Source: Symploca sp. SIO3C6
Lineage (GTDB): Bacteria; Cyanobacteriota; Cyanobacteriia; Cyanobacteriales; Coleofasciculaceae
Direction: 5' to 3'
DNA: 64,000 nt
Assembly (NCBI GenBank): GCA_010692425.1
Contig: JAAHHJ010000032.1
Location: 1 to 64,000, forward strand
Made by a program: the position numbers and the translations under genes. Shown one piece after another: positions 1,901 to 39,724 of this stretch; within the stretch, counting starts at the first letter, position 1, and the number at the start of each line of letters is the position of its first letter. The notes beneath the pieces are model-generated. The model searched no databases. It worked only from the letters and a program-made list of their open reading frames with translations, and had not been told where the DNA came from.

Positions 1901-2578
1901 CTAAGAGACATCGATAGTCCTTGAAGAAGCAGGAATCCTTCTACGTGGATGTTCACCTACAATACCCCATTCTAAGTTATCCAAAGCTTCTGTATCATTA
2001 ATACTCTCTCGGAAAAACACCGCGTGCAACTGATTTAAGAAAGATAAATCTTTCGGTAGTTTAGTCACCCCTGGCAGTAAAACTGGAATTACAGGCAATT
2101 CTTGTTCTACACACTGGCTAATAAATTCTCGTAATTCTAAGATTTGCCACCTGCCAATTCCATGAGCACTAATGAAAATTGCTGCCGATTTAACCCGAGG
2201 AATTGCTTGTTGGATAACATCTTGGAACCATCTTCCTGGAGGAATTTGTTCCTTGTCTAACCAGGGATTCAAGCTACGTTCTCTAAGATACTGAGCGATA
2301 GCTTCTATTTGAGGTTTATCTTGACTATTGTGAGCCAAGAAGACATCGAATTCTTTTGTTTTTATCTTGCCTCTAATAATAGAAACAGCTTTTTCAGCTT
2401 CCCGATTAGTATCAGCCGCTTTATCAATTTCATAAACTTTGGACGGTTGAGTATAACTGAGTTGTTCTTCTTGATCCAGCAAGGAAATATGAGTATCACA
2501 AACACTACAATTAATACAGTCGTAACCTCGTTCCCGCCGACGCTTCACTTGTAGTTCAGTAGGATAGTTAAGGAGCAT
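1901..2578 (-). CDS. TIR-domain protein, probably N-terminally truncated
   Basis: Residues about 75-205 form a TIR-like domain (TIR_2 type): FDVFLAHNSQDKPQIEAIAQ, then LNPWLDKEQIPPGRWF, AAIFISAHGIGRW and ILELREFIS, which includes the Glu expected of TIR NADases. The N-terminus (ELQVKRRRERGYDCINCSVC, HISLLDQEEQ) looks like the linker that precedes TIR domains in larger STAND/COR-type cyanobacterial proteins. It is therefore probably the tail of a longer receptor. An in-frame TAA sits directly before the ATG and no good ribosome site is visible. Its 5' end overlaps, on the other strand, the broken NACHT gene. It could still be expressed as a small TIR effector. Confidence 0.75.
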   Translation of the reverse strand: MLLNYPTELQVKRRRERGYDCINCSVCDTHISLLDQEEQLSYTQPSKVYEIDKAADTNREAEKAVSIIRGKIKTKEFDVFLAHNSQDKPQIEAIAQYLRERSLNPWLDKEQIPPGRWFQDVIQQAIPRVKSAAIFISAHGIGRWQILELREFISQCVEQELPVIPVLLPGVTKLPKDLSFLNQLHAVFFRESINDTEALDNLEWGIVGEHPRRRIPASSRTIDVS

Positions 2579-3442
2579 TTAACTCAACGTCACTGGCAGG
2601 AAATATTTATTCTAATTGCCCAAAGACTAGCAAGTGCTGATGAGTTCCTTAAACTGATGTTTAACTATGCTAATCTTCTTGTTCAGAGTGAAGCTTTACA
2701 AACAATGCTGGATTGGTTAGACAGAGTAACTACTGCCGCTCAAGTTAAATCTAGCGCCTGGAGAGCCTTATATTTTGCTATAGATTTAGATGTTGAACTC
2801 TACATTCATATAAGTCCCGATGATAAGATTAATCGTCAGATTGCTGAGAAGCTAGCGATCGCCATGAGAGAGTTTAATATTGAACGTAAGAAGACAACTC
2901 CCACACAGCCAAGGGCTTTACTGACATTAGATTTAGCTGCTACCCATGCCTTAGCACTTGAAGAGGCAGAGGAACGTAATTCTACTGAACAGACTACTCC
3001 ATTGAGAGTAAGTTCATGGGCTCAAGCACGCCTTAATGTCCAAGAAGGTACTGATATAGCTCAAAGACTCCAACAAGCCATTGAGAGAGCAGAAAAATCA
3101 GGTTATACAGAGTTAGTAGAAGAACTAGTTGATCTACAAAAGCGCCAGCCCTGTGATGACGCTTCTGGTGTAGTTTGCCAACAATGGGCAGAGGACTTAC
3201 GGAAGATAATGCTGAAGTATTTAGACGCAGGTCATGCTGTAATTCTATCCGAGGAAGAGCTAAAATCTCTAGAAGATTATATTTATGTAAATTACCTCAT
3301 CCTAGAGTGTATTCGTGGAGAGTGTTATGTCTCTAGAAATTTGCGTGAGGAGATTATCGATAATCTGCTGATGCCAAGCGATCGCATTCCTTCACATCTA
3401 TTCCCTTCACTCGAAACTAGTAACCAGCTAAATCCAGTCTAA
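2555..3442 (+). pseudogene. C-terminal fragment of a NACHT-domain STAND protein
   Basis: The first ATG is at 2657, but recognisable sequence in the same frame starts earlier: IVKEHLTQRHWQEIFILIAQ from about 2564, after a TAG at 2552-2554. The remainder (LMFNYANLLVQSEALQ, LSEEELKSLEDYIYVNYLIL, then CYVSRNLREEIIDNLLMP) matches the helical C-terminal region of cyanobacterial NACHT proteins. The N-terminal effector and the NACHT ATPase (no Walker motifs here) are missing. The break lies where the TIR gene starts on the other strand. It is probably non-functional, though a 261-aa protein from 2657 is possible. Confidence 0.75.
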
Positions 3443-6258: not shown

Positions 6259-6453
6259 TGGTTTCCCCTTTAGTTGTTTTGATTTTACCTGTCAACCAGA
6301 ATATGGTAGTATAATGCGCATTTAATACCAAGTTGCTCCTCCCAGAGGTAACTATAGTTATCGGCTGTTGGCATCGGGGATAAAATAATCTCCGAGAGCA
6401 GGTGACTTTTCCCCTCGCCTCTCTTACTCCCGGAATTATTCTACATAAAGGAA

Positions 6454-6491
6454 AGTAATAAGTAATAAGTAATAAGTAATAAGTAATAAGT
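6454..6491 (+). repeat. Heptamer tandem repeat (TAATAAG type)
   Basis: About five AGTAATA units between the helicase and the DUF2780 gene. It is the one array in the window that does not run in the direction of the gene it follows. Confidence 0.9.
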
Positions 6492-6564
6492 GACAATCAG
6501 AATTTGTCTGATTTGTTGATGTTCAAGTAAAGCTTATTCCTTATAATGTATGTTAATTAAATAT

Positions 6565-9042
6565 TTAGGTGGTCGAGATAATGATAGTATTTTCTGTGAT
6601 TAACTCTTGAGGAATGCATTGAATAAATTTACTGGGAATTGCAGGATATCCCCAAGGATTTTTTTGATTAGCAGATATCAATAGATTTCTTTTTGCCCTT
6701 GTCATTGCCACATAGAATAGGCGTTTTTCTTCTTCTAGTCTTCCCTCGTCTAAACTACGATAATAAGGAATTTCTCTCTCAGAAACACCGGCGATAAAGA
6801 CTGTATCAAATTCTAGCCCCTTTGCTTGGTGAATCGTGACAATCAAGACTTGATTTTTGTCTTGGGAGATTTGATCTAAATTCTTGGCTAAAGCAGTAAA
6901 CTCAAGAATACTTCGCACAGAAGTATCTGGATGGAATGCTAAATCATCACGCTCTTGAAAAATTCCCAATAGTCGTTGCAGGTTTTGTCGACGTTTACGA
7001 TCACTTCTATAGAAGTCTATCAATCCTGACTCTATCATTATTCTGTTGAGTATTTCTGGAGGTCGTAGTTCTTGACTTGCATCCCTCCAATTCTCTATCT
7101 GCTGTGCCAATTCTTCAAACTGATCACCGTATCGGTAAACTAGCGCTTGACGGTAAGCTTCCCCTGGCGCAATTAGAGGTATTAAATACTCTAGTAGTTT
7201 AATTGTTGTCAACGTGTCATCAGTAGCTTGGTGATTAGGTTTAGGCAGATGCAACTGAGCAGCTAGGTTTTCCAGACTGTAACTATCTGCTTTAATAAAA
7301 CGGTTAGCTAAATTCCAGGTATCTGCCCATAGAAACTCAGGAACATCTAGACCAACTTTGCGGGCATGGGCTGTTACCATTTTGATATCGAATCTAACAT
7401 TATGCCCTACTAGTAACGCACCCTCGGCAAAGTCGAAAAATTCACAAAATACTGCTCTGGCATCTCTACCAGATTGGGCGAGGAACTTGTCACTATGCCC
7501 ATGTATACTTTCTGTATCTCCTACGCTAACTTGATTGGCGATATAGAAATGGAATTCGACCGTTGGTTTACCCTCAATTAGTCGCGTTGCAGCTATTTCT
7601 ATGACTTCATCCTGACTAACTGAAAAGCCAGTTGTTTCTACATCAAAGACAACTATTGTTCCAGATGTATAAGCTTTGAGTAATTCACTAAAAGGATCGC
7701 CATCTATAAAGGTTTTGCTTAATGCCATGTCTGTTAGTTTGAACCCACAGTTCTTACCTTCCTCACTGATACTCTTGATAGTTGCATTACCAATTCCACG
7801 ACGAGGGCGCATTAAGATTCGGTACATTGAAGCAGTATCAAAGGGATTCAAAATAAATCGTAAGTAAGCCAGTGCATCCTTAACTTCCTGACGCATAAAG
7901 AACTGGTATTGCTCACGGGTAACACAGGGTACATCAAGCTGCTCTAATACTTCACTAATTAACTCAACTCGTTTATTAAGGCGGGCTAAGACAGCTACGC
8001 GATTATAGGCAAAATTTTTGTTGCTACCTGCAAGCTTTTTAATTTGCTCTGCAATCCATTTACCCTCCTGCTGATTATCTTCAGCAACATGAACCTGAAT
8101 TAATTCGCCAGTTTCACACTCAGGTGCAGGAGTAATTTTTGTTTGGCGGTGCTGGAAAGAATCGGCAAAAGCAGAAACTGCTTTCAGCAAAGTATTAGTA
8201 GCCCTATAGTTCAAATTTAGAGAGTATTGTGTAGGTTTAAAATCACTTGTAAACTGATTGATTACTTGTTCTGGTTCAGAGCCTCGCCACTCATAGATAG
8301 TTTGGTCTAAATCGCCAATCATGGCAATATTTCTACTACCAGATGCTAAATAGCTTACAATCTCATATTCTGATAAATGAGTATCTTGTACTTCATCTAC
8401 CTGCAAAAACTCAAAGCGATTTATCCAGCGTTGTTTTATTTCTGGATAATTATAGAACATTGCCCGAACATAAAAGATTAAATCGGCAAAATCTATGGCA
8501 TGGCGTTCCTTTAGAATTGCCTGATAGCGTACCGCCCCTATGGCTTTATTTTTTTCTAAAGATGCAAACAATCTCTCTAGGGGATAGTTTAGGGATAGTT
8601 GTTCAGCACTGGCTTGAGTCTTGCATGTAGCTAGGTCAGATAAAATCCGTGGAGCGTCTTTATCTTTAGATAAATCAAAAACTTCTTTAACTAGTTCTTG
8701 ACAATCTTCATTATCGTAAATTACAAAATCTACGGGCAGACCAATTTGACGTGCCTCAATCCGAAGCATCGATGCACAAAGACCATGAAACGTCTTGATA
8801 GTGATGTAGCGAAATTCATCTGGACAAGCCTGTACTAGACGCTTGTTCATCTCTTGTGCCGCGCGATTGGTGAAGGTAATACACAAGATTTTATGGGCAG
8901 ATATGCCGTTTTTAATAGCACATACTACCCGCTCTGAAAGAACACTAGTTTTGCCCGTGCCAACAGGGGCAATAACTAAAATTGCACCAGAAATGTGGTT
9001 TATTATCTGCTGCTGTTCCGAATTGAATTGAAATTGAAACAT
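6565..9042 (-). CDS. UvrD-like helicase with inserted DnaQ-like exonuclease
   Basis: 825 aa. Helicase parts: Walker A APVGTGKTSVL (about 25-35), VDEVQDTH (about 215-222), MIGDLDQTIYEWRG, NLNYRATN, and after the insertion VTIHQAKGLEFDTVFIAG and RLFYVAMTRAKRNL. Residues about 460-622 are a complete DEDDh exonuclease: VVFDVETTG (D467, E469), LLVGHNVRFD (D552) and HQATDDT (H604, D609). The exonuclease follows RPRRGIGNATI, so it sits inside the helicase fold, not at an end. The protein should unwind DNA and digest 3' ends, in repair or defence. It stands alone between repeats and has no obvious operon partner. Confidence 0.88.
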   Translation of the reverse strand: MFQFQFNSEQQQIINHISGAILVIAPVGTGKTSVLSERVVCAIKNGISAHKILCITFTNRAAQEMNKRLVQACPDEFRYITIKTFHGLCASMLRIEARQIGLPVDFVIYDNEDCQELVKEVFDLSKDKDAPRILSDLATCKTQASAEQLSLNYPLERLFASLEKNKAIGAVRYQAILKERHAIDFADLIFYVRAMFYNYPEIKQRWINRFEFLQVDEVQDTHLSEYEIVSYLASGSRNIAMIGDLDQTIYEWRGSEPEQVINQFTSDFKPTQYSLNLNYRATNTLLKAVSAFADSFQHRQTKITPAPECETGELIQVHVAEDNQQEGKWIAEQIKKLAGSNKNFAYNRVAVLARLNKRVELISEVLEQLDVPCVTREQYQFFMRQEVKDALAYLRFILNPFDTASMYRILMRPRRGIGNATIKSISEEGKNCGFKLTDMALSKTFIDGDPFSELLKAYTSGTIVVFDVETTGFSVSQDEVIEIAATRLIEGKPTVEFHFYIANQVSVGDTESIHGHSDKFLAQSGRDARAVFCEFFDFAEGALLVGHNVRFDIKMVTAHARKVGLDVPEFLWADTWNLANRFIKADSYSLENLAAQLHLPKPNHQATDDTLTTIKLLEYLIPLIAPGEAYRQALVYRYGDQFEELAQQIENWRDASQELRPPEILNRIMIESGLIDFYRSDRKRRQNLQRLLGIFQERDDLAFHPDTSVRSILEFTALAKNLDQISQDKNQVLIVTIHQAKGLEFDTVFIAGVSEREIPYYRSLDEGRLEEEKRLFYVAMTRAKRNLLISANQKNPWGYPAIPSKFIQCIPQELITENTIIISTT

Positions 9043-9417
9043 TCTTTTAAATATCGATTTTTTGCACTGTTTAAAATTAAATGATCATCTGAAAAAAGAC
9101 ACATCGTTATATAATTATTAATTTTAAATTAAATACTCTAATCATAAGATTTGTAGAAATAGTCATCTATTGTAAATAACTAATGCCTCTCGATTCAAAT
9201 CTATGTTAATTAAGTATCTAAAATTACATATAATTTCTACTTTTGCCTATAACTACAGTGAATAGCATCAGTAAATTTACCTAAATATCGGTAGATGATT
9301 AGGACTTGTTGTGATTACACTTAGACACAAATATATTTAGTACAATTGTTCTAGTTGAATATATTTTTAGGAATGCCGCAAAATTAATTACTTATTCAAT
9401 ACTTGATAAAACTTATA
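9043..9417. other. AT-rich intergenic region, no gene seen
   Basis: About 375 bp of AT-rich sequence upstream of the helicase gene. I see no ORF, hairpin or repeat of note. The helicase promoter must lie here but cannot be placed. Confidence 0.5.
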
Positions 9418-9639
9418 ATGCATGTCGATTTCTATGGTAAGACAGAGCGTAATTTGAGGAAAGTGACACAGAAGTATGGAGTGAAATTTGAACATCCCTC
9501 TTTTGAACAGAAGCGTAGACTAGTGCAGCAACTGTGTGACATTGCTGCAACTAAAGGTATTACTTTGTACTCCTGCTGTGATGACACTTTGATTAGCGAC
9601 GGAGTTAAATTACTACAAATCATGGATCATGAACTATGA
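9418..9639 (+). pseudogene. Fragment of a DUF1848-like gene
   Basis: The frame from the ATG at 9418 reads MHVDFYGKTERNLRKVTQKY, then a helical stretch, and ITLYSCCDDTLISDGVK. This resembles an internal piece of DUF1848 proteins, which have KTERN and YSCC-D motifs and are about 280 aa. The rest is missing on both sides, and the 3' end runs into decamer repeats (CATGAACTATGAAC) that supply the stop. It is most likely a dead remnant. The family call is by memory of the motif. Confidence 0.55.
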
Positions 9640-9649
9640 ACACTATAAA

Positions 9650-10219
9650 CTATGAATCACCCTCAGGCAATCTCGCCTCTCCAAAAACCTGCTGTGGAGT
9701 CATTTCCAATCCCTCAAACAGTGAATCGGTCATCAGCTCCCCTTGTATATAAGTTTGCGGTGGTGCATCTGGATAGAAAACCGTAATACTTCTCGCCTGC
9801 GCATCAATAACCCAAACCCGCAATACTCCTGCTTCCAAATAATCTGTTGCCTTCTGTACTAATTGCCCAAATGTCTGTCCTGGTGAGATAATTTCGATCG
9901 CTAATTCTGGTGGTATTGGACAAGCTTCATCCTTCATTACCTCTACAGGGAGACGCTGATAGGAAATGTAGGTTAAATCTGGTGTGGGCACCCAGTCTTC
10001 ACCTCTTCGCTTTAAGGCTATTGCCCATTCCGGATAAACTTCTCCTTGCCCCCGACACCACTGGTAAATAATAAATAAGAGAGTTCTTTGTAAAGCCGAG
10101 TGAAAGCGTTTAGGCGACATTTTCGGTACTGCTTCACCCTCTAGCAACTCATAAGTCACATCTGACTCTGGCAATGCCAAAAAATCTGCTAACGTTAGTT
10201 GATTTTGAGTCTGTGTCAT
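9650..10219 (-). CDS. Uma2 family (DUF820) endonuclease-fold protein
   Basis: 189 aa. It shows the Uma2 pattern: LTLADFLALPESDVTYELLE with the early Glu, then PTPDLTYIS, ELAIEIISPGQTFGQLVQKATDYLEAGVLRVWVID and the closing ITVF. The D...EI/S...Kxx(D/E)Y residues form a PD-(D/E)XK-like nuclease site. Such genes occur in dozens of copies in cyanobacteria and their role is unknown. It lies 17 bp after the next gene on the same strand, so the two may be co-transcribed. Decamer repeats follow its stop. Confidence 0.88.
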   Translation of the reverse strand: MTQTQNQLTLADFLALPESDVTYELLEGEAVPKMSPKRFHSALQRTLLFIIYQWCRGQGEVYPEWAIALKRRGEDWVPTPDLTYISYQRLPVEVMKDEACPIPPELAIEIISPGQTFGQLVQKATDYLEAGVLRVWVIDAQARSITVFYPDAPPQTYIQGELMTDSLFEGLEMTPQQVFGEARLPEGDS

Positions 10220-12865: not shown

Positions 12866-13624
12866 ATGCTAGCTGAGAGTTCGCTAAGTGGAAAACGTCT
12901 TGCTGTCTTGATTGATGCTGATAATGCTAACGCCAAACTCATCGAACCACTGTTAAAAGAAATTTCCAAATTTGGCACAGCAACTGTGAAGAGAATTTAC
13001 GGAGATTGGACAAGTCCCCAACTCAATAGTTGGAAAAATAAGTTGAATGAGTTTGCCATCCTACCCATGCAGCAATTTGGATATACAACGGGCAAGAATT
13101 CAACTGACAGTGCTTTAATTATTGATGCCATGGACTTGCTCTACACTGAAAAGTTCGATGGATTCTGTATTGTCTCTAGTGATAGTGACTTTACTAGGTT
13201 AGCTTCGAGAATCAGAGAATCAGGGCTATCTGTCTATGGATTTGGAGAACAAAAAACTCCAGGATCTTTTGTTGCTGCCTGTGACAAATTCATTTACACC
13301 GAAATTTTAGAACCATTAGAGAAAGAGAAAGAAAACAACTCATTATCAACAGCCAATTTTGAAAACAGTAAAACTTTCAAATCTAACCGTAAACTGGTTA
13401 AACTTCTCAAAGATGCCTATGAAGCCAAGGCAGGAGAGGATGGCTGGGCTAACTTAGGACTATTGGGAAATCAGCTAAATCAGCTCTCTTCATCTTTTGA
13501 TCCGAGAAACTTTGGCTATAAAAAATTGGGAGAGTTGTTTCGCAATATTGATTTGTTCGAGGTAAAAGAAATTCCCCACAAGAAAAACCCCTTAGCCAAA
13601 GAGCTACTAGTCAAATTGAAATGA
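12866..13624 (+). CDS. NYN-domain and LOTUS (OST-HTH) RNA-binding protein
   Basis: 252 aa from the ATG at 12866, which has AAGGA before it. Residues about 10-145 are a NYN/PIN-like RNase domain: LAVLIDADNANAKLIEPLL (catalytic Asp residues), RIYGDW, NSTDSALIIDAMDLLY and FCIVSSDSDFTRLASRIRE. After a polar linker, residues about 175-250 form an OST-HTH/LOTUS domain (LVKLLKDAYEAKAGEDGWAN and FGYKKLGELFRNI). It probably acts as a cytoplasmic RNA endonuclease. It lies inside the methionine-salvage group on the opposite strand, which seems to be coincidence. Confidence 0.88.
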   Translation: MLAESSLSGKRLAVLIDADNANAKLIEPLLKEISKFGTATVKRIYGDWTSPQLNSWKNKLNEFAILPMQQFGYTTGKNSTDSALIIDAMDLLYTEKFDGFCIVSSDSDFTRLASRIRESGLSVYGFGEQKTPGSFVAACDKFIYTEILEPLEKEKENNSLSTANFENSKTFKSNRKLVKLLKDAYEAKAGEDGWANLGLLGNQLNQLSSSFDPRNFGYKKLGELFRNIDLFEVKEIPHKKNPLAKELLVKLK

Positions 13625-19711: not shown

Positions 19712-22063
19712 ATGACACAAACCACTGATTTTCTTAGCCACCTTAATCCTTCCCAGCGTCGCGCTGTTGAACATTTTTGCGGACCATTACTTGTCGTTGC
19801 TGGGGCTGGTTCTGGGAAAACTAGGGCGCTAACTTACCGAATTGCTAATCTGATTGAGCGACACAAAGTTGATCCAGAAAATATCCTGGCGGTAACTTTT
19901 ACGAACAAAGCCGCACGGGAAATGAAAAATCGGATTGAGATTATTTTTGCTCAACAGCTGGCACAAAAAAAACACGGTGGGCGTTTAGAACTGCTGCCAG
20001 CTGAGGAACAAACTAAGTTGCGATCGCGCGTTTACAAAAAATACATTAAACCTCTGTGGATTGGCACTTTTCACAGCATACTTGCTCAAATTCTACGCTT
20101 CGACATCAACAAATATCAAGATGAAAAGGGACGTCAATGGAATCGTAATTTTTCCATTTTTGATGAATCCGATGCCCAAAGTCTAGTTAAAAATATTGTC
20201 ACTAAGCAGCTAAATCTAGACGATAGGAAATTTGAACCGCGAGGTGTCCGCTACGCTATTAGTAATGCCAAAAACCTAGGTTTATCCCCACAGGAATTTG
20301 AACAAGAGCAATCTAATTTTCGAGGAAGGGTAATTGCTGAAGTCTACGGATATTATCAGGAGCAATTAGCAGCTAACAACGCCCTAGATTTTGATGACTT
20401 GATTTTAGTACCAGTCAAGCTCTTTGGACAAAATGAATCTGTTTTAGGCTATTGGCATCGACAATTCCAACATATTTTAGTAGATGAATATCAAGATACT
20501 AACCGGATTCAATACGAACTTATCCGCCTGCTAAGTACTAACGGAGAAACGAATAAAAGTGAGTGGGATTGGCGCGAACGTTCAGTGTTTGCAGTTGGTG
20601 ACGCTGACCAATCCATATATTCATTCAGGATGGCTGACTTTACCATTCTTTTGGATTTTCAGGAAGATTTTGGTGACAGTTTGCCCGATACAGAAACCAA
20701 CACGATGGTAAAATTAGAAGAAAACTACCGTTCTCGGGAAAACATTCTCCAAGTCGCTAATCATTTGATTGAGAATAACACCAAGCGTATTGATAAGGTA
20801 CTCAGACCAACACGGGGTGTGGGAGAAGAAATTTACTGTCACAAAGCCGATGATGAGGTAGAAGAGGCGCAATTTGTTCTCAATCAAATCCTCAAACTAG
20901 AACAACAGAATCCAGAACTAGATGAGGGTAGCTTTGCTATTCTTTACCGCACTAATGCCCAATCTCGTCCCCTTGAAGATGCCTTGAGGGGAAAGGTTCA
21001 TTACATAATTGTTGGTGGATTGAAATTCTATGACCGCAAAGAAATTAAGGATGCCTTAGCTTACCTGCGAGTACTTGCTAATCCTGCTGATACGGTTAGC
21101 CTCCTACGGATAATTAATACTCCTCGACGGGGCATTGGTCAAGCTACAATAAATAATCTAGTAGTTGCCTCTCAAGAGTTAGGTACACCCCTTTGGGAAA
21201 TCCTCAGTGATGAAACTTCAGTTAATACTATGGCTGGACGTTCTGCCAAAGCAGTCAATAAATTTGCAGCACTAATTAAGCAATGGCAGGAGCAAGTTGA
21301 GGCTTTATCAGCGGCTGAGATTGTCAAGGGAATTATGGAAGAATCTGGTTATCTTAGCGATTTGAGGAATAAAGGCACCGAGGAAGCAGAAAATCGACTA
21401 GAAAATGTTTTTGAACTCTATAATGCTGTCCTTCAATTTCAAGAAGATAACGAAGATACTAGCTTAGAAGGTTTTTTAGCAAATGCCTCCCTAGCATCCG
21501 ATTTAGATAATCTTGACGAAGGACAAAAAGCAGTCTCGCTGATGACTCTTCACTCTGCCAAAGGATTAGAGTTTCCTGTAGTGTTTATGGTGGGTTTAGA
21601 GCAAGGATTATTTCCCCACAGCCGTGCTATGAGGGACCCTACAGCCTTGGAGGAAGAACGCCGCCTCTGTTACGTGGGCATTACCCGCGCTCAAGAACAG
21701 TTATTTCTATCCCACGCTCGTGAACGTCGTCTTTATGGTAGCCGAGAACCGGCTGCGCGTTCCCAGTTTCTTGGGGAATTACCGTCAGAACTAATTACTA
21801 GCACCTTGGTACAAGTTAAATCTAAGCAGCAAACCTCTTCAGGTTCAAAGTCCAAAACTAACAAATCTCCAAGCCCAACTACAAATTCCCAGGAATTACA
21901 AGTGGGGGAATCAGTCATTCATGATACCTTTGGCACTGGTGAAATTACCCATATTTTTGGTTCAGGAAATAAAATCAGTATTGCTGTTAAGTTTCCTGGT
22001 TTGGGTCAAAAAATTCTTGATCCAAAACGGGCAAATTTGGCAAGAACGATTGACTCTAAATAG
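19712..22063 (+). CDS. pcrA: UvrD/PcrA-type DNA helicase
   Basis: 783 aa, the usual size for the family. Motifs in order: VVAGAGSGKTRALTYRIA (Walker A), TFTNKAAREMK, IGTFHS, ILVDEYQDTNRIQYEL (II), AVGDADQSIYSFRMAD (III), LEENYRSRENIL (IV), VSLMTLHSAKGLEFPVVFMV (V) and RRLCYVGITRAQEQLFL (VI). The C-terminal tail contains a Ser-rich linker and a KOW/Tudor-like end (GESVIHDTFGTGEITHIFG), as in PcrA proteins that bind RNA polymerase. It acts in repair and in clearing proteins from DNA. It is distinct from the exonuclease-carrying homologue at 6565-9042. Confidence 0.93.
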   Translation: MTQTTDFLSHLNPSQRRAVEHFCGPLLVVAGAGSGKTRALTYRIANLIERHKVDPENILAVTFTNKAAREMKNRIEIIFAQQLAQKKHGGRLELLPAEEQTKLRSRVYKKYIKPLWIGTFHSILAQILRFDINKYQDEKGRQWNRNFSIFDESDAQSLVKNIVTKQLNLDDRKFEPRGVRYAISNAKNLGLSPQEFEQEQSNFRGRVIAEVYGYYQEQLAANNALDFDDLILVPVKLFGQNESVLGYWHRQFQHILVDEYQDTNRIQYELIRLLSTNGETNKSEWDWRERSVFAVGDADQSIYSFRMADFTILLDFQEDFGDSLPDTETNTMVKLEENYRSRENILQVANHLIENNTKRIDKVLRPTRGVGEEIYCHKADDEVEEAQFVLNQILKLEQQNPELDEGSFAILYRTNAQSRPLEDALRGKVHYIIVGGLKFYDRKEIKDALAYLRVLANPADTVSLLRIINTPRRGIGQATINNLVVASQELGTPLWEILSDETSVNTMAGRSAKAVNKFAALIKQWQEQVEALSAAEIVKGIMEESGYLSDLRNKGTEEAENRLENVFELYNAVLQFQEDNEDTSLEGFLANASLASDLDNLDEGQKAVSLMTLHSAKGLEFPVVFMVGLEQGLFPHSRAMRDPTALEEERRLCYVGITRAQEQLFLSHARERRLYGSREPAARSQFLGELPSELITSTLVQVKSKQQTSSGSKSKTNKSPSPTTNSQELQVGESVIHDTFGTGEITHIFGSGNKISIAVKFPGLGQKILDPKRANLARTIDSK

Positions 22064-27783: not shown

Positions 27784-28806
27784 ATGTCTAAGCCTTTCCG
27801 AATTTTAAGCCTAGACGGTGGTGGCATCCGTGGATTGCTCACTGCACAAATACTTTTAGAATTAGACTGCTATATACAGGCAAACTTCAATCAGCAATTA
27901 TCTCAATATTTTGAGTTGATTGCTGGCGCTTCTGCTGGAGCAATTTTGGCTTCAGAAATAGCTGTAGGCAAAACCACTAGTGATATTATTAAAGACTATA
28001 TTTGTACTACAAAAAAAATCTTTTTTCCACCGTCTAATCCCCTAAAAAAAATAGACAATTGGTTAGTTAAAACCCTATTTGGATTAAGTTCTAGTTTGTT
28101 TAGACCAAAGCATTCAGGTTCAAGGTTGACTAACATACTTAAGTCTAGACTGGGAGTCAACAGAAAAATTGCAGACTTAGATACTAAGTTATTAATTCTT
28201 GCCTATGAAACCCAAAGCCATCGACCAATAATTTTTAATAACTGGGTAAATACAGATCAATTTGAACCAAGTAATTGGATTTATTTACAAGATATATTTT
28301 TATGGGAAGCAGTTAGATGTTCTTCCTCATTCCCTGGCTTTTTTCCAGCCTACCCTTTGCAGAAAGATGGTAAACTTTTGTCAGTGATTGATGGTTCTAT
28401 CGGTGCTTTAAATCCTGCTGCTGTTGCTGTAGCTGCCGCCATTGCTATGGGTCATAAACCGGAGAACATCAATCTACTTTCAATCGGAAGTGGAGACCCT
28501 AATTTAGCAATTTCCTTGACAGAAGCTGAAACTTGGGGCATGACTCAGTGGGCATCAAGGATGTTTAATTTATTTACGTTCGGTGTATCTAGTTTCGATG
28601 ATTACATTGCTGGAGAAATTGCTAATGTCTACTTGCGTCTTCAGCCTAAATTAACAATTGGTTCTGGTATCAATGATGTGAGTCAAGACTATGACGACAC
28701 TAGCGATAAAAATACCCAGAATCTGATCACAGAAGCACAGGTCTATCTTAGGAAAGACGAAATACAGAAAAAATTGACAAATTTTTTCTGCTCTAAGCAA
28801 AATTAA
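27784..28806 (+). CDS. Patatin-like phospholipase
   Basis: 340 aa. ILSLDGGGIRGLLTAQIL gives the oxyanion hole (11-17), LIAGASAGAILASE the nucleophile elbow (Ser50), and VIDGSIGALNPA the second dyad residue (Asp203). It should hydrolyse acyl chains of membrane lipids. Close relatives occur as effectors in bacterial defence systems as well as free-standing lipases. It starts 97 bp after the two-ATPase operon on the same strand and could share its transcript or have its own promoter. The combination with STAND-type ATPases hints at a regulated membrane-damaging module; this is inference. Confidence 0.85.
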   Translation: MSKPFRILSLDGGGIRGLLTAQILLELDCYIQANFNQQLSQYFELIAGASAGAILASEIAVGKTTSDIIKDYICTTKKIFFPPSNPLKKIDNWLVKTLFGLSSSLFRPKHSGSRLTNILKSRLGVNRKIADLDTKLLILAYETQSHRPIIFNNWVNTDQFEPSNWIYLQDIFLWEAVRCSSSFPGFFPAYPLQKDGKLLSVIDGSIGALNPAAVAVAAAIAMGHKPENINLLSIGSGDPNLAISLTEAETWGMTQWASRMFNLFTFGVSSFDDYIAGEIANVYLRLQPKLTIGSGINDVSQDYDDTSDKNTQNLITEAQVYLRKDEIQKKLTNFFCSKQN

Positions 28807-34213: not shown

Positions 34214-35434
34214 TTAGAGCTTATCAACTCCTAGTAAATCCCGTAAAAAATTATAACCTGCCTGTTCTAAATCTCCTGCGATAGAAAAAGTTAAACTGCG
34301 AACTCGAATGTTACCAACTTTGATGTTCAGCGGTTCTGCCAAGAGCGTTGGATAAATTAGAATTGCTTCTTGAGACCCTTTTGCTTCTGCATAAGCGACC
34401 ATCTGACTAATATCAGCAGAAGCTGGTTGATCAGCAGTTTTGTACTTGGTATCTAATACATATTTGGCTATCCCTGTTCCTATATCATAGATTACTAAGT
34501 CAATATCAAAGTATAATCCCTCAGCCTGACCCAAATAAACTCTTTCTTGGGACTGGATATCTAAGGCTTGCTTGTTCAATATCGTTTCCAGATGTACTTT
34601 TAGCCAAACAGCCACAAAGCGTTCGTATAGTTGCGACATATTAACCAAAAAGGGTAATGTCGCGTTTGTACCTATTTCATGGCTAGGTGCAGTATGTTCC
34701 AAAAAGAAGCGGCAAAGCGCGTGTAGAGGACGATAGTCTTCATTTAGGCGATTATATTGTCGCCCGATACAAGTTCTCGGATTACACTGTTGCAATGTTA
34801 CAAATCCCTGTAGTAGATGATATGCACGTCGCACCATTGGCATTACCCGTTCCGTACACAAACTGCTACGGGCAATACACCAAAACGTCCAAGCGATAAT
34901 TTGATTATCTTCAACGTCTGCCGTATGTTCTTCATACTGGCACTGGATTTTAGTATCCCACGGTCTAGTAACCATCTGCTGTATATCAATACGTCCCCGA
35001 ACATAAGGCAAATGTTGTGTTTTGGGGATGTAAGCACAGTAAAAACCCTGACGACCTCGGTTGAGAATGCGACGAGCCAAAATATCAGCCAGCCGTTCAT
35101 AAAATTCCTCCAAAGTTTGACAATCAACCAATCCCTCCAAAAAGCGAAAACTGTTGAGTTCATAAGCATATTCCAGCATTCGCAAAAGTTTACCTAGCTG
35201 GACTTTGGGGCGTAGGGCAATGTGAAAATCACTCGTTAAGGGAATATGACCAACCCATCCTTGAGCAGCTAGTCGCCAGTGATCGCCTGTTTTTGGAGAA
35301 GGGAAGTCTACCTTCACCTGAGTACCATAATCACGCCACAATATTTCTCCCACTACATCGGGAAGTAGCGATCGCGGCAATAACTTTGGAACATATTCAG
35401 TTAGTTCTATTGTCTGTAGCGATGTTACATTCAT
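34214..35434 (-). CDS. mcrC: McrC nuclease subunit of an McrBC-type restriction system
   Basis: 406 aa. The N-terminal domain (PRSLLPDVVGEILWRDYGTQ, GWVGHIPLTSDFHIALRPKV, YELNSFRFLEG) and the PD-(D/E)XK site (EGLYFDIDLVIYD, then AKYVLDTKYKT with D-x-K) match McrC. It pairs with McrB, enters the assembled ring and cuts DNA. It overlaps mcrB by 4 bp (ATGA), so translation is coupled. It is the last gene of the operon and is followed by a duplicated 86-bp segment. Confidence 0.9.
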   Translation of the reverse strand: MNVTSLQTIELTEYVPKLLPRSLLPDVVGEILWRDYGTQVKVDFPSPKTGDHWRLAAQGWVGHIPLTSDFHIALRPKVQLGKLLRMLEYAYELNSFRFLEGLVDCQTLEEFYERLADILARRILNRGRQGFYCAYIPKTQHLPYVRGRIDIQQMVTRPWDTKIQCQYEEHTADVEDNQIIAWTFWCIARSSLCTERVMPMVRRAYHLLQGFVTLQQCNPRTCIGRQYNRLNEDYRPLHALCRFFLEHTAPSHEIGTNATLPFLVNMSQLYERFVAVWLKVHLETILNKQALDIQSQERVYLGQAEGLYFDIDLVIYDIGTGIAKYVLDTKYKTADQPASADISQMVAYAEAKGSQEAILIYPTLLAEPLNIKVGNIRVRSLTFSIAGDLEQAGYNFLRDLLGVDKL

Positions 35435-37050
35435 GGGTAAATTTGCTTCCTGACTTTGTGCCAGCGAAACTGCTCAACTTTACTGGGTTGATCGAAAAAA
35501 TATTCTTCCAAGTACGGCTCAATCTCAAGTTGCCAAATACTCTCAATTTGGTCAACTAAGTCATCTCGCAGGAAATAGCTGATACCCACTTCGTTGTGAG
35601 GATTACTAATTGCTTGGTTCAACTTAGTCAGTGTTTGAATCAACTTCTCCACCGGAAAATCAGTATCTAAGTGACGACGGCGCAAAATCTCATAGTTTGG
35701 GTACAGAGGAATAAAAGCAAAGCGACGACGAAGGGCATAGTCTACTAAAGCAATTGAGCGGTCTGCTGTGTTCATTGTGCAGATAATTCGTACATTTGTG
35801 GGAATGCTAAACACCTCACCTGCTGCTAAAGGAATTTTTTCGTTGCGATACTCTAACAAATACATTAACTCACCAAAAACGCAGGCAACATTGGCACGGT
35901 TGATTTCATCTATAATCAGTACGCAGATATCTTGATGACGACATGCCTCCTCACAAAAATTAATAAACCGTCCATTAAGCAGTGGATAATTAAGTTCTCC
36001 ATCGATTCTTTGTGGGCGAATTCCTTGTATGAAGTCCTCATAAGTATAAGCAGGGTGAAACTGGACAACATCTACAAAACCATCACTACCTCCAACCAAA
36101 TATTTTGCCAGTTTTTGGGCAACATATGTTTTCCCTGTACCTGGAGGCCCGTAAAAAATTGCCTGTTTTTTACGCTCTATCCCCTTCAACCAATTTTCAA
36201 GCGTCTCTTCTTCAATTCCAGTATCCAATGCACATTGATTGAGGGAATATTCTGGCTGCATTTCTATAACAGGTAATTTGATTACTTTATCCCTTATGGA
36301 AGGATTTTTATCTGAAAAATTATACTTTTTAACAGCAACCAGCCAATGACAAAACATATCGAATAAGTCATCATCTCGCATAGATGGCATACCAGTCTGG
36401 TTCATGTCATAAGACAATTCTGTAATTAATTTTTTTCCTGTTGCATTAATAGCTGGATAATCTGTTAGGTTATGATTATGAAATTTTCCTGTAAAGTAAT
36501 TGATAACTGGGCGTGATTTATTATTAATTAACAAAAAATCATTTGGTCGAAGTGCATTCAGGATAGGTGTGAGCATCCCTGTTTGGAAGCCTGTAGTATA
36601 ATCTAATTTCGAAAATTCCTTACAAGCTTCTATCAATTGATTAGGATAATTATTACAGCGACAAACGAAGTTAAAGATTGCTTGAGCTATTTTTGAACAG
36701 TATTCTGGTTTTATCCAACCTGCACCTTCAAAACGCTCCTTAATATCTTTGGTGATTGCTGGGGAATGATGAATCCAAACATTCCTTCGACTATTGTTAG
36801 CCGTTGGTGCATGGGGCAGAAGTTGTAGAAGGACTGCCTGATTTATATCTTCTCCAGACTTATTGGCAGAGACAATTGCTTGAAAATTATCCCTTGCTTT
36901 ATGGCGCTGTTCATGGTAAGTATTCCGATGACGCAGCCCATCAGGGGTATAAGGATAAAAACCGATAAATGCTTTAAATAATTGGATAAATTCGTTATTT
37001 TTGTCTGAAATAAAAACCTTTTGGGAACTATGTAGTTTTTTGGTATTCAT
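35431..37050 (-). CDS. mcrB: McrB-type AAA+ GTPase with unusual N-terminal domain
   Basis: 539 aa. Residues about 1-260 form a helical N-terminal domain (FIQLFKAFIGFYPYTPDGLR, FNFVCRCNNYPNQLI, GMLTPILNALRPNDFLLINN) that I do not recognise as a classical methyl-DNA reader. The motor carries IFYGPPGTGKTYVA (301-308), VLIIDEINRANVACVFGEL (Walker B about 376-384) and CTMNTADRSIALVDYALRRR, with the McrB signature MNTADRS. It should bind GTP, translocate and drive McrC. The two genes before it encode ASCH-like domains that may provide recognition in place of the usual fused reader. Confidence 0.88.
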   Translation of the reverse strand: MNTKKLHSSQKVFISDKNNEFIQLFKAFIGFYPYTPDGLRHRNTYHEQRHKARDNFQAIVSANKSGEDINQAVLLQLLPHAPTANNSRRNVWIHHSPAITKDIKERFEGAGWIKPEYCSKIAQAIFNFVCRCNNYPNQLIEACKEFSKLDYTTGFQTGMLTPILNALRPNDFLLINNKSRPVINYFTGKFHNHNLTDYPAINATGKKLITELSYDMNQTGMPSMRDDDLFDMFCHWLVAVKKYNFSDKNPSIRDKVIKLPVIEMQPEYSLNQCALDTGIEEETLENWLKGIERKKQAIFYGPPGTGKTYVAQKLAKYLVGGSDGFVDVVQFHPAYTYEDFIQGIRPQRIDGELNYPLLNGRFINFCEEACRHQDICVLIIDEINRANVACVFGELMYLLEYRNEKIPLAAGEVFSIPTNVRIICTMNTADRSIALVDYALRRRFAFIPLYPNYEILRRRHLDTDFPVEKLIQTLTKLNQAISNPHNEVGISYFLRDDLVDQIESIWQLEIEPYLEEYFFDQPSKVEQFRWHKVRKQIYP

Positions 37051-37576: not shown

Positions 37577-39724
37577 TTATATATCAAAATGTCTATTTCC
37601 TAAATTATACAACTTTATAAATGACTCATTATTAATTTTATTGGGAGAAACAATCAACAAATTATTTTTATTCAGAACTTGCTGTAATTTTTGAAAATCT
37701 ATAGGACGATTAAATAATTCTGTATCGCTAAATCTAATTGCCATGATGTTACCATTTATATCTTTCCGTACATTCTCAACATTACTTTCATTATAAACTC
37801 CTAATCTTTGAAAGCGCCGATAAAGTTCTTTAGATTTACCTATAACTACCTCATCTACATAAGAACAAGCACCAATATAACCGACATTCTGAAAACCTTT
37901 ACCTTTACCTTCATTTTGAGTTTCACTCACGTACCAAAGAATTCGACAAGGAGCATCTAAACCTCTAGAGTTTTGTCTAGCTCTATAGTAAACTGCTTCA
38001 CGATTAAATGCTAATTCAGGTTTAGCTCCAAATCCATCTAAAGGAAGTATTTGATTGGCTAAATGTTCATCAAATAAACATGAAGCCCATCTCGGTTGAA
38101 TAGGTATAATAAAGGTGGGAATTTCAAAATCAATAATCTTTGCAGGAAAAATAAATCTTTCAATATCTACTGAAGATTGAACATTTATAAGTATATTTTC
38201 ATTATTAAGGTTATTAACCAGTTCTCTAATAAAACCATATTCTTCTCCCAAGTTAAAGACTAAGTCAATAATATACTTTGATAATTCTGAAGTTGTTTTT
38301 ACAACCGATAAATTTGCCTTTAACCATCCATTGTGAACCTTTACAAAAGCATCTTCTTGAATAGCCTCGGTAACAGTATCTTCTAGATAGGAGTCAGTTA
38401 TTCTTGTAAAATGCTGTTGTCCATGAGCAGATTTTAATATAGATTTAAAAATTATATGACGTGCAATGGTAGGCGAAAGATCATGATTACTAACTCTAAG
38501 TATCGGAATTTCTAGTTCATATTTTTTATGCTTGCCATACACGATTAAAGCAAGTGGATTAGTCTCATTTTTTCTCACAACAACACATTCAAATTTATCA
38601 TGTTCAGCTAAATAGCGTCGTATTTGCTGCTGAAGTTCAGCTTGATTTTCTTTTAACTTATAGTTATGAAAATAATTAGCTAAAAAATTTTCTTGTCCAC
38701 TTTTCACTTCTATTTGTTCCAATGACGTACCAGAAAGACGTATAGGTTGGTAGTCAGGTTTATCCTTCAGTTCATCTAGCTGATTTATAAATTCTTCAGG
38801 GTGAATAACCGACAAACTAAAATTTTCATAAATTATATCTGCTAAATCTAATAATTGCTTATTTCTACTTAAAAATATATGAGATTCAGAGGTGATACTC
38901 CTAGCAACATAACGCAAGTAATATTCATCAATTAAAAAATTGCTTTTAATTATTATTTTTTGTAGAATATTTAAGTTTTTATCTAATCTCTGATGATCGC
39001 AAGGTAAGCAAGTAAAATCTCGTGCAAAATTACGCTGACTACCTCTCTCTTGAATGTTGTCAATTCTGTTAATTTGATTAAAAATTTCATCGTTTACGCA
39101 CAGTTCTAATTCAGTCTGTACCCAGTCTGCTAGTAATATATTTAGATCTTCACTATCAATTGAATCGTCATTATTAAGAGCATATAAATCCCAGAAAATA
39201 TCAGGGTCAATCATTGCACACAACTTAGACTCAAGCTGTTGCTGAATCATGGTAGACAATAGAGGAAGTGGATTGTGTTCAAACACCCAGCGAGTAAGAA
39301 TTGTTTTCTTCTTTTTACTCCTACCTTCTCCATCCTTACAGGCAATAAAACCAAAGCTAGACCACATTCCCTGTAGGTTATAGTCTCGACGGCAACTGAG
39401 CTTAATTCCACGAGAAGATTTGGTTATTTGTTTGAGGTGATTGACAAGTTGTTTAGCTACTCCCTTATCCCTAAAAGTATGATCGATACATAAATGAGCG
39501 ATCGCAAACCATTCCCGCGAAGGTCGATATAAGAGGTAACCAATGCAGCTACCTCCGGAATCAAGCGCTACAAGAATTTGGCGATGGGCTGCTCGTTCTT
39601 CAAATGCTCCTTTAGGTAAGTGACCAAGTGTTTTTGAGTTAGCTCGCCACAGTTTTTTTACTGTTGCAAAGTGTGGAGAACAATTATCTATTGCTTCAAT
39701 TTTTATTGGTGCGTCAGTTGTCAT
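37577..39724 (-). CDS. GNAT, PIN-like and ASCH-like fusion protein
   Basis: 715 aa, first gene of the mcrBC operon. Residues 1-130 are a GNAT domain (GYLLYRPSREWFAIAHLCID, DKGVAKQLVNHL). Residues about 165-315 look like a PIN nuclease (MIDPDIFWDL, WVQTELELCVNDEIFNQI, FLSRNKQLLDLADIIYENF), but Asn288 stands where PIN enzymes usually have Asp. The middle (315-590) is unassigned. The C-terminus (about 590-700) is ASCH/PUA-like: YIGACSYVDEVVIGKSKELY, AIRFSDTELFNRPIDFQ. Such GNAT-PIN-ASCH combinations suggest an RNA-targeting or modifying effector. The domain calls are by pattern. Confidence 0.7.
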   Translation of the reverse strand: MTTDAPIKIEAIDNCSPHFATVKKLWRANSKTLGHLPKGAFEERAAHRQILVALDSGGSCIGYLLYRPSREWFAIAHLCIDHTFRDKGVAKQLVNHLKQITKSSRGIKLSCRRDYNLQGMWSSFGFIACKDGEGRSKKKKTILTRWVFEHNPLPLLSTMIQQQLESKLCAMIDPDIFWDLYALNNDDSIDSEDLNILLADWVQTELELCVNDEIFNQINRIDNIQERGSQRNFARDFTCLPCDHQRLDKNLNILQKIIIKSNFLIDEYYLRYVARSITSESHIFLSRNKQLLDLADIIYENFSLSVIHPEEFINQLDELKDKPDYQPIRLSGTSLEQIEVKSGQENFLANYFHNYKLKENQAELQQQIRRYLAEHDKFECVVVRKNETNPLALIVYGKHKKYELEIPILRVSNHDLSPTIARHIIFKSILKSAHGQQHFTRITDSYLEDTVTEAIQEDAFVKVHNGWLKANLSVVKTTSELSKYIIDLVFNLGEEYGFIRELVNNLNNENILINVQSSVDIERFIFPAKIIDFEIPTFIIPIQPRWASCLFDEHLANQILPLDGFGAKPELAFNREAVYYRARQNSRGLDAPCRILWYVSETQNEGKGKGFQNVGYIGACSYVDEVVIGKSKELYRRFQRLGVYNESNVENVRKDINGNIMAIRFSDTELFNRPIDFQKLQQVLNKNNLLIVSPNKINNESFIKLYNLGNRHFDI

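Follow-up and report, generated by a model that had tools for sequence, protein, structure and literature searches.

A UvrD-type helicase encoded by the cyanobacterium Symploca sp. SIO3C6 carries a complete DEDDh (DnaQ-like) exonuclease inside its 2B subdomain, and this architecture is that of a conserved family, already modelled in PADLOC-DB, which is rare and patchy in cyanobacteria. The gene lies in the analysed stretch of DNA of 64,000 nucleotides (positions 1 to 64,000 of contig JAAHHJ010000032.1), which is referred to here as the window. Because its relatives lie beside several anti-virus gene sets, the protein looks like an interchangeable component of bacterial immunity that degrades DNA. 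The reading that is favoured, by a modest lean and from sequence comparison, is that of a partner-swapping immune helicase–exonuclease, a mobile part that would digest 3′ ends and would probably act against phages. The points that are new are the 2B position of the exonuclease, the apparently single origin of the insert and the swapping of partners.

Domain architecture and insertion site

The gene is a single unbroken open reading frame that begins with ATG (Table 1). In Pfam, the UvrD-helicase match (PF00580, 3.1e-63) is followed by UvrD_C (PF13361, residues 273–793, 6.1e-105), and RNase_T (PF00929, 1.3e-22, 81.5 bits against a cut-off of 24) is nested within the latter. The full DEDDh domain that the preliminary description had placed at about residues 460–622 is thus borne out, both by the RNase_T match and by a fold match over residues 456–628. 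D467, which it had singled out for mutation in nuclease tests, belongs to the pentad D467, E469, D552, H604 and D609 (a D-x-E, D, H-x4-D pattern). The Pfam matches, motor residues and fold place the protein in the UvrD/Rep group of superfamily SF1A, and RNase_T together with the pentad places the insert, at the sequence level, in the DEDDh exonuclease/DnaQ superfamily. A PcrA orthologue was ruled out, since the PcrA equivalog model NCBIfam TIGR01073 gave 413.2 bits against a cut-off of 911.2. The best-scoring PADLOC model, RTasHel (PDLC03802), which describes the helicase of DRT-labelled loci with RT_UG35, was matched over its whole length including the insert (3.3e-281, 933 bits; protein residues 1–815 against profile positions 1–674 of 675). 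The insert alone aligned to profile positions 379–525 (146 bits), and the model therefore already contains the architecture.

Table 1. Features of the helicase–exonuclease gene and of its locus in the window.
Feature	Coordinates	Strand	Basis
Complete gene (825 amino acids; PADLOC RTasHel) for a UvrD-type helicase with a DEDDh exonuclease insert	6565..9042	-	ORF, Pfam, PADLOC, AlphaFold2
UvrD/REP helicase N-terminal region, residues 7–269 (Walker A K31, DE box D216/E217)	8236..9024	-	Pfam PF00580; residues kept 31/31
GIG motif of subdomain 2B, residues 416–418	7789..7797	-	RPRRGIG aligned to UvrD/PcrA/UvrD1
2B insertion including linkers, about residues 430–641	7120..7755	-	phmmer break 427/624 against UvrD
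DEDDh (DnaQ-like) exonuclease, residues 464–617	7192..7653	-	Pfam RNase_T; catalytic residues 31/31; fold match 9ii8_A, Z 23.0
Remainder of 2B and C-terminal motor 2A, residues 642–825	6568..7119	-	UvrD_C to 793; phmmer stretch 624–794
3,307-bp gene-bearing segment, replaced in same-genus G452 by 5,669 bp with two other genes	6352..9658	.	blastn breakpoints 6351/9602, 9659/15272; L209 ORFs

The phmmer alignment with Deinococcus radiodurans UvrD ends at query residue 427 (chain residue 435) and restarts at query residue 624 (chain residue 446), so that about 196 query residues occupy the place of about ten UvrD residues. The exonuclease thus takes the place of some ten 2B residues a short way past RPRRGIG and begins about 45 residues beyond the duplex-binding GIG motif. 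The helicase had been described as split by the insertion. This holds in the sense that the insertion is internal and falls within the UvrD_C match, but what is interrupted is the 2B accessory and regulatory subdomain, and the 1A/2A motor core is left whole. Structure prediction, which had been proposed as a check, agrees with this arrangement: an AlphaFold2 model built from a 13-sequence family alignment is one confident chain (mean pLDDT 88.1, pTM 0.85) that matches UvrD 4c2u_A over its whole length (Z 42.8, 614 aligned residues, rmsd 3.2) and, at residues 456–628, the exonuclease 9ii8_A of Staphylococcus aureus DinG (Z 23.0, 167 aligned residues, rmsd 1.7). A comparison with solved structures paired the helicase flanks with UvrD, PcrA, UvrD1 and Rep, and the insert with the PolC-type exonuclease 2p1j.

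In UvrD relatives, 2B is described as a regulatory subdomain whose GIG duplex contacts are now read as autoinhibitory, the inhibition being relieved by 2B–2B contact or by partner proteins (PMC13238157). The same account gives C451 of Mycobacterium tuberculosis UvrD1 as the residue that forms the 2B–2B disulfide (PMC13238157). This residue aligns with S424 of the window protein, some 35–40 residues ahead of the exonuclease. The insertion therefore adjoins a known switch of UvrD-class helicases, and this closeness may be of mechanistic importance.

Conservation, origin and distribution of the family

The comparison set comprised 31 complete sequences, namely the window protein and 30 homologues from Cyanobacteria, Bacillota, Verrucomicrobiota and one unclassified source, and was gathered mostly with exonuclease-containing queries, so that the presence of the insert in all of them is partly built in. 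The five catalytic residues of the exonuclease are present in 31 of 31, down to about 33–35% identity, as are the helicase residues K31, D216, E217, D244, Q247, R253, R280, R354, G742, E744 and R782. R774 is kept in 27 of the 31, and the GIG motif is variable (G416 in 23 of the 31). A less biased scan with the whole-length RTasHel profile found matches to at least 600 profile positions in 11 of 386 cyanobacterial genomes, all 11 of which carry the insert. A further 178 of the 386 genomes reached an E-value of 1e-100; for those among the matches listed, the match was confined to the N-terminal part, as is that of PcrA. In an Akkermansia MAG copy (L107:8723-10882), an in-frame deletion has removed the exonuclease core (residues corresponding to 485–576), and a detached piece of the C-terminal end of the gene lies at 13333–13572; this may mean that the nuclease can be dispensed with or that the copy is decaying.

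When compared with 24 of the 73 available outgroup DEDDh domains, the inserted exonucleases formed one group (support 99/94). A helicase tree of 31 rows was calculated with the inserted stretch removed, after exclusion of the Akkermansia copy and of the fragments L040, G155, G197, G103, G719 and G751. The main groups of the insert tree recur in it, which fits one insertion followed by joint descent, and the family apparently arose from a single insertion event. The pairing of the window protein with G382 (83/56) and the position of L035 (81/58) are weakly supported branches.

With an insert-plus-flank profile, members were detected in 9 of the 195 genomes from the order and in 17 of the 388 from the class, the latter count including three fragments (G103, G719 and G751). 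Among the matches listed from genome contigs, members occur in Nostoc, Moorena, Cyanothece, Bacillota, Verrucomicrobia and Negativicutes, and at least 15 of 80 loci carry the helicase, the exonuclease core being absent from one of these; a member is also present in Acetoanaerobium. On viral contigs, none of 54 loci had helicase regions of the RTasHel-like family, and none of 65 phage records covered 80% of the query; carriage by phages is therefore without support. A search of plasmids for the UG35 reverse transcriptase (RT) gave no match. In the literature search, which did not extend to the likeliest source (Mestre et al., 2022), no description of the insert-bearing helicase family was found, and the search for UG35 and UG14 returned unrelated papers only and no mechanism for UG35 systems. 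The internal insertion had been called unusual, with the proviso that the architecture might prove to be common and well described. That word is fair. The architecture is rare, differs from the N-terminal fusion of ExoDinG and was found in none of the papers searched; however, it recurs across a family for which PADLOC already holds a model.

Neighbouring genes and changes of partner

The surroundings of the gene were compared at 28 cyanobacterial loci, of which 23 were readable and five (L040, G155, G197, G719 and G751) were left unjudged because of contig edges or unfetched sequence. A UG35 RT gene adjoins the helicase gene at nine of the 23 (G360, G262, G368, G064, G382, G486, G456, L036 and G615), overlapping it or lying within about 20 bp; the RT has 1,019–1,174 residues where intact and is split by a transposase gene in G615. 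A HindVP restriction gene and a C5 methylase gene lie directly upstream at three further loci (G127, G072 and G103), an arrangement seen just upstream of the helicase in L039 and L173; in G103, where the restriction and helicase genes are truncated, the pair, like that of L039, was identified from the translated text. At one locus, that of Nostoc mirabile, the helicase gene is preceded directly by a KilA-N/BstA-like gene and followed after 41 bp by a UG14 RT gene. At one locus (G662), a gene for a UvrD–PD-(D/E)XK protein and an N6/N4 methylase gene lie downstream, with TniQ/TniB genes upstream. At another (G600, L230:5880-10351), AAA_15 and type I specificity genes lie upstream, and the downstream gene matches Cas12j- and Cas12k-labelled PADLOC models (887 and 872 bits); the helicase–exonuclease there is possibly cargo of a CRISPR-associated transposon. 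The remaining eight of the 23, namely the window, G328, G280, G590, G692, G753, G682 and G709, are without a recognised partner, as judged from BLAST against the UG35 RT for all loci, HindVP clustering for the first set, Pfam and PADLOC scans of a few neighbours and translations read by eye. At non-cyanobacterial loci, where few neighbours were scanned, no RT neighbour was recognised.

The UG35 RT occurs in six of 386 cyanobacterial genomes and the insert-bearing helicase is adjacent to it in five of these, the exception being G187, which has the RT without such a helicase. The probability of at least five shared genomes is 3.9e-8 (hypergeometric, with relatedness ignored). Among the 14 closest cyanobacterial rows of the helicase tree, at least four changes of partner state (UG35, UG14, restriction–modification or none) are required. 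The HindVP rows fall in a 100/100 group together with one UG35-partnered and one partnerless row, and the UG14 row falls within a 100/99 group of UG35 rows. A single clade of UG35-partnered copies was rejected (p-AU 7.9e-11; nine rows against five, the group having been named post hoc).

The UG35 RTs themselves occur in two forms, and gene order and form correlate. Those encoded upstream of the helicase (L037, L172, L174 and L176) have 1,155–1,174 residues, and those encoded downstream (L036, L038, L170 and L211) have 1,019–1,028 residues. The upstream-encoded form is about 130–150 residues longer at the N-terminus, and the extension appears DNA-binding-like by eye. In one downstream-encoded RT (L036:7614-10685), the stretch preceding the RT domain is weakly methyltransferase-like (E 0.04).

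The locus in the window

The Symploca genome has one copy of the insert-bearing helicase and, at 19712–22063, an ordinary PcrA. No UG35 RT was found in its assembly, which is 96.95% complete, so that no UG35 DRT locus was recognised there; eight RVT_1 matches, of unspecified RT class, are all on other contigs. No long open reading frame lies directly beside the gene, the nearest encoding a DUF2780 protein of 127 residues and a Uma2 protein of 189 residues. A tblastn search of the window at E 1 found no remnants of RT or HindVP genes; a single KilA-N match (E 0.032, 2576–2827) was judged to be due to chance.

The same-genus genome G452 is without the helicase. Its flanks, which are about 90% identical to those of the window, end and restart on either side of the segment given in Table 1, and the replacing stretch (L209:9603-15271) encodes proteins of 439 and 1,126 residues. 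The former has a weak receiver-like match, and the latter is an ATPase of SMC/AAA-like type whose C-terminal part is a HATPase_c domain. The cassette gives weak PADLOC matches to mad3, mad8 and AriA, from which one of the replacement genes may be labelled defence-like. Replacement between conserved flanks is typical of immune loci but falls short of proving function.

Elsewhere in the window, McrC-like (PF10117) and McrB-like AAA_5 genes (34214–37050) adjoin a gene for a 715-residue GNAT-containing protein (37577–39724). At 1901–3442, a TIR-domain gene on the reverse strand has a divergent neighbour whose product carries the NACHT C-terminal helical domain NCH2, a gene for a patatin-like phospholipase is at 27784–28806, and two consecutive open reading frames at 394–1375 are, by eye, apparently a split IS630-type transposase.

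Comparison with known systems

The protein shares its motor, its 2B subdomain with GIG and its whole-length fold with PcrA, UvrD and Rep, but has a DEDDh domain in 2B and coexists with an ordinary PcrA. In contrast to the RTasHel/UG35 loci, the Symploca genome has no UG35 RT, and the family also occurs with a UG14 RT, with HindVP restriction–modification, with other genes and alone. AddAB, RecBCD and AdnAB, to which fold matches were obtained, likewise join SF1A motors with nucleases; their nuclease is a terminal RecB-type PD-(D/E)XK domain, whereas that of the window protein is a DEDDh domain within 2B. GajB of Gabija (PADLOC; 8jqb and others) is also a UvrD-like helicase of a defence system, but is without a DEDDh insert, the Gabija nuclease being the separate GajA. 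Gabija was rejected, as GajB gave 306 bits against 933 for RTasHel and no long open reading frame that could be GajA lies directly beside the gene. The nearest solved sequence to the insert is that of PolC of Gram-positive bacteria (2p1j, 8.4e-18), which is a polymerase and not a helicase; its DEDDh domain is also inserted inside another domain (PHP). Finally, ExoDinG and S. aureus DinG (SaDinG) likewise combine a DEDDh exonuclease and a helicase in one polypeptide, the exonuclease being described as an N-terminal fusion in ExoDinG (PMC11981726) and as N-terminal to an SF2 motor of 5′→3′ polarity in SaDinG (PMC12345164). Identity with ExoDinG, an N-terminal DEDDh domain joined to an SF2 XPD-like motor, was rejected, since the exonuclease is internal here and the motor is of SF1A type.

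Proposed function and alternative explanations

Motors of the UvrD/PcrA/Rep type travel 3′→5′ on the tracked strand, and DEDDh exonucleases of this family also act 3′→5′. A single polypeptide would therefore combine a 3′→5′ translocase or helicase with a 3′→5′ exonuclease, and the shared polarity is well suited to degrading the tracked strand from the 3′ terminus. The insertion had been expected to couple unwinding to 3′ end digestion, and such coupling is treated here as putative. Given the motor polarity, the reachable 3′ end would be the one that trails behind on the tracked strand, or else one at a nick or on the product of a partner, and would not be that of the displaced strand of a simple 3′-tailed fork. 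Most likely, the motor would load on 3′-ended single-stranded DNA and clear or unwind it, and the exonuclease would meanwhile shorten the tracked strand at its 3′ end, in the manner of RecB- or Bad-kind helicase–nucleases with other nucleases. The exonuclease sits in 2B, to which duplex binding, the inactivity of the monomer and the contacts of the activated dimer are attributed in UvrD relatives. Whether it works by itself or supplies the nuclease activity for a UG35 or UG14 RT or for a restriction system, the enzyme would degrade DNA ends arising from invasion or from the partner enzyme. Beside restriction–modification genes or alone, the target would be the ends of invading DNA; as no partner was recognised in the window, the enzyme there would act alone. 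A preprint on other DRTs reports that the products of DRT3 and DRT9 are checked by host RecBCD and ExoI (PMC13174585), and by analogy the enzyme may act on cDNA at UG35 and UG14 loci. A more specific form of this proposal has a plug-in helicase–exonuclease that serves RT-based, restriction-based and stand-alone defences by consuming the 3′ ends that these expose; the exonuclease would be linked to the 2B switch, and on seizing a 3′ end it could displace 2B from the duplex and start the motor. This form is tentative and is considered rather unlikely as it stands.

Several observations count against an immune role, and some of them bear on the alternative of a DNA-repair helicase–nuclease for lesions or crosslinks, similar to the exonuclease-bearing S. 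aureus DinG or to MrfAB, beside which the defence neighbours would be incidental. The eight readable loci without a recognised partner include the window. Against an immune role also count the UG35 RT of G187 without such a helicase, the result that no RT was recognised among the few neighbours scanned at non-cyanobacterial loci, the Akkermansia copy and the weakness of the matches by which one gene of the G452 cassette was called defence-like. The chromosomal surroundings are largely shared by G692 and G682 and in part by G753, three genomes of one genus in which the context is an ordinary one, and both Pectinatus loci lie beside YceG, sharing it and the genes after it, as would be expected of a vertically kept repair gene. 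Furthermore, in SaDinG, the nearest described enzyme with both functions in one polypeptide, both activities are reported to be needed for crosslink resistance (PMC12345164), and MrfA, a 3′→5′ helicase, and MrfB, a 3′→5′ exonuclease, are reported to act in nucleotide excision repair (PMC12458937). However, the family is rare and patchy and gives way to other genes in a same-genus genome, the same genome also encodes an ordinary PcrA, and adjacency to RT and restriction–modification genes is recurrent; a repair role is therefore regarded as possible but doubtful.

The UG35 and UG14 neighbours, and the preprint report on RecBCD and ExoI, would also suit a quencher that unwinds and digests RT cDNA, so that the system would stay silent until the quencher is inhibited by a phage or outpaced by the product. 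The window and seven further loci are, however, without a recognised partner and the HindVP loci have no RT, so that such a role would cover part of the family only, and it is held to be improbable. That the exonuclease is a structural lever setting the orientation of 2B, its catalysis being unimportant, is suggested by its closeness to the 2B switch (PMC13238157) and by the Akkermansia copy without the core, but is very unlikely given the strict retention of the five catalytic residues among distant homologues. A chimeric assembly or chance resemblance can be practically dismissed in view of the strength of the RNase_T match, the confident single-chain model and the many independent genomes with homologues; since these carry the same insertion, a local assembly artefact is excluded.

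If the immune reading is true, one family would link RT immunity, restriction–modification and stand-alone defence through a common step of 3′-end processing. The helicase–exonuclease partner would then be an obvious handle on UG35 systems. In addition, the family would serve as a naturally occurring test of the UvrD 2B switch, with an enzyme grafted near the residue of the M. tuberculosis UvrD1 2B dimer contact.
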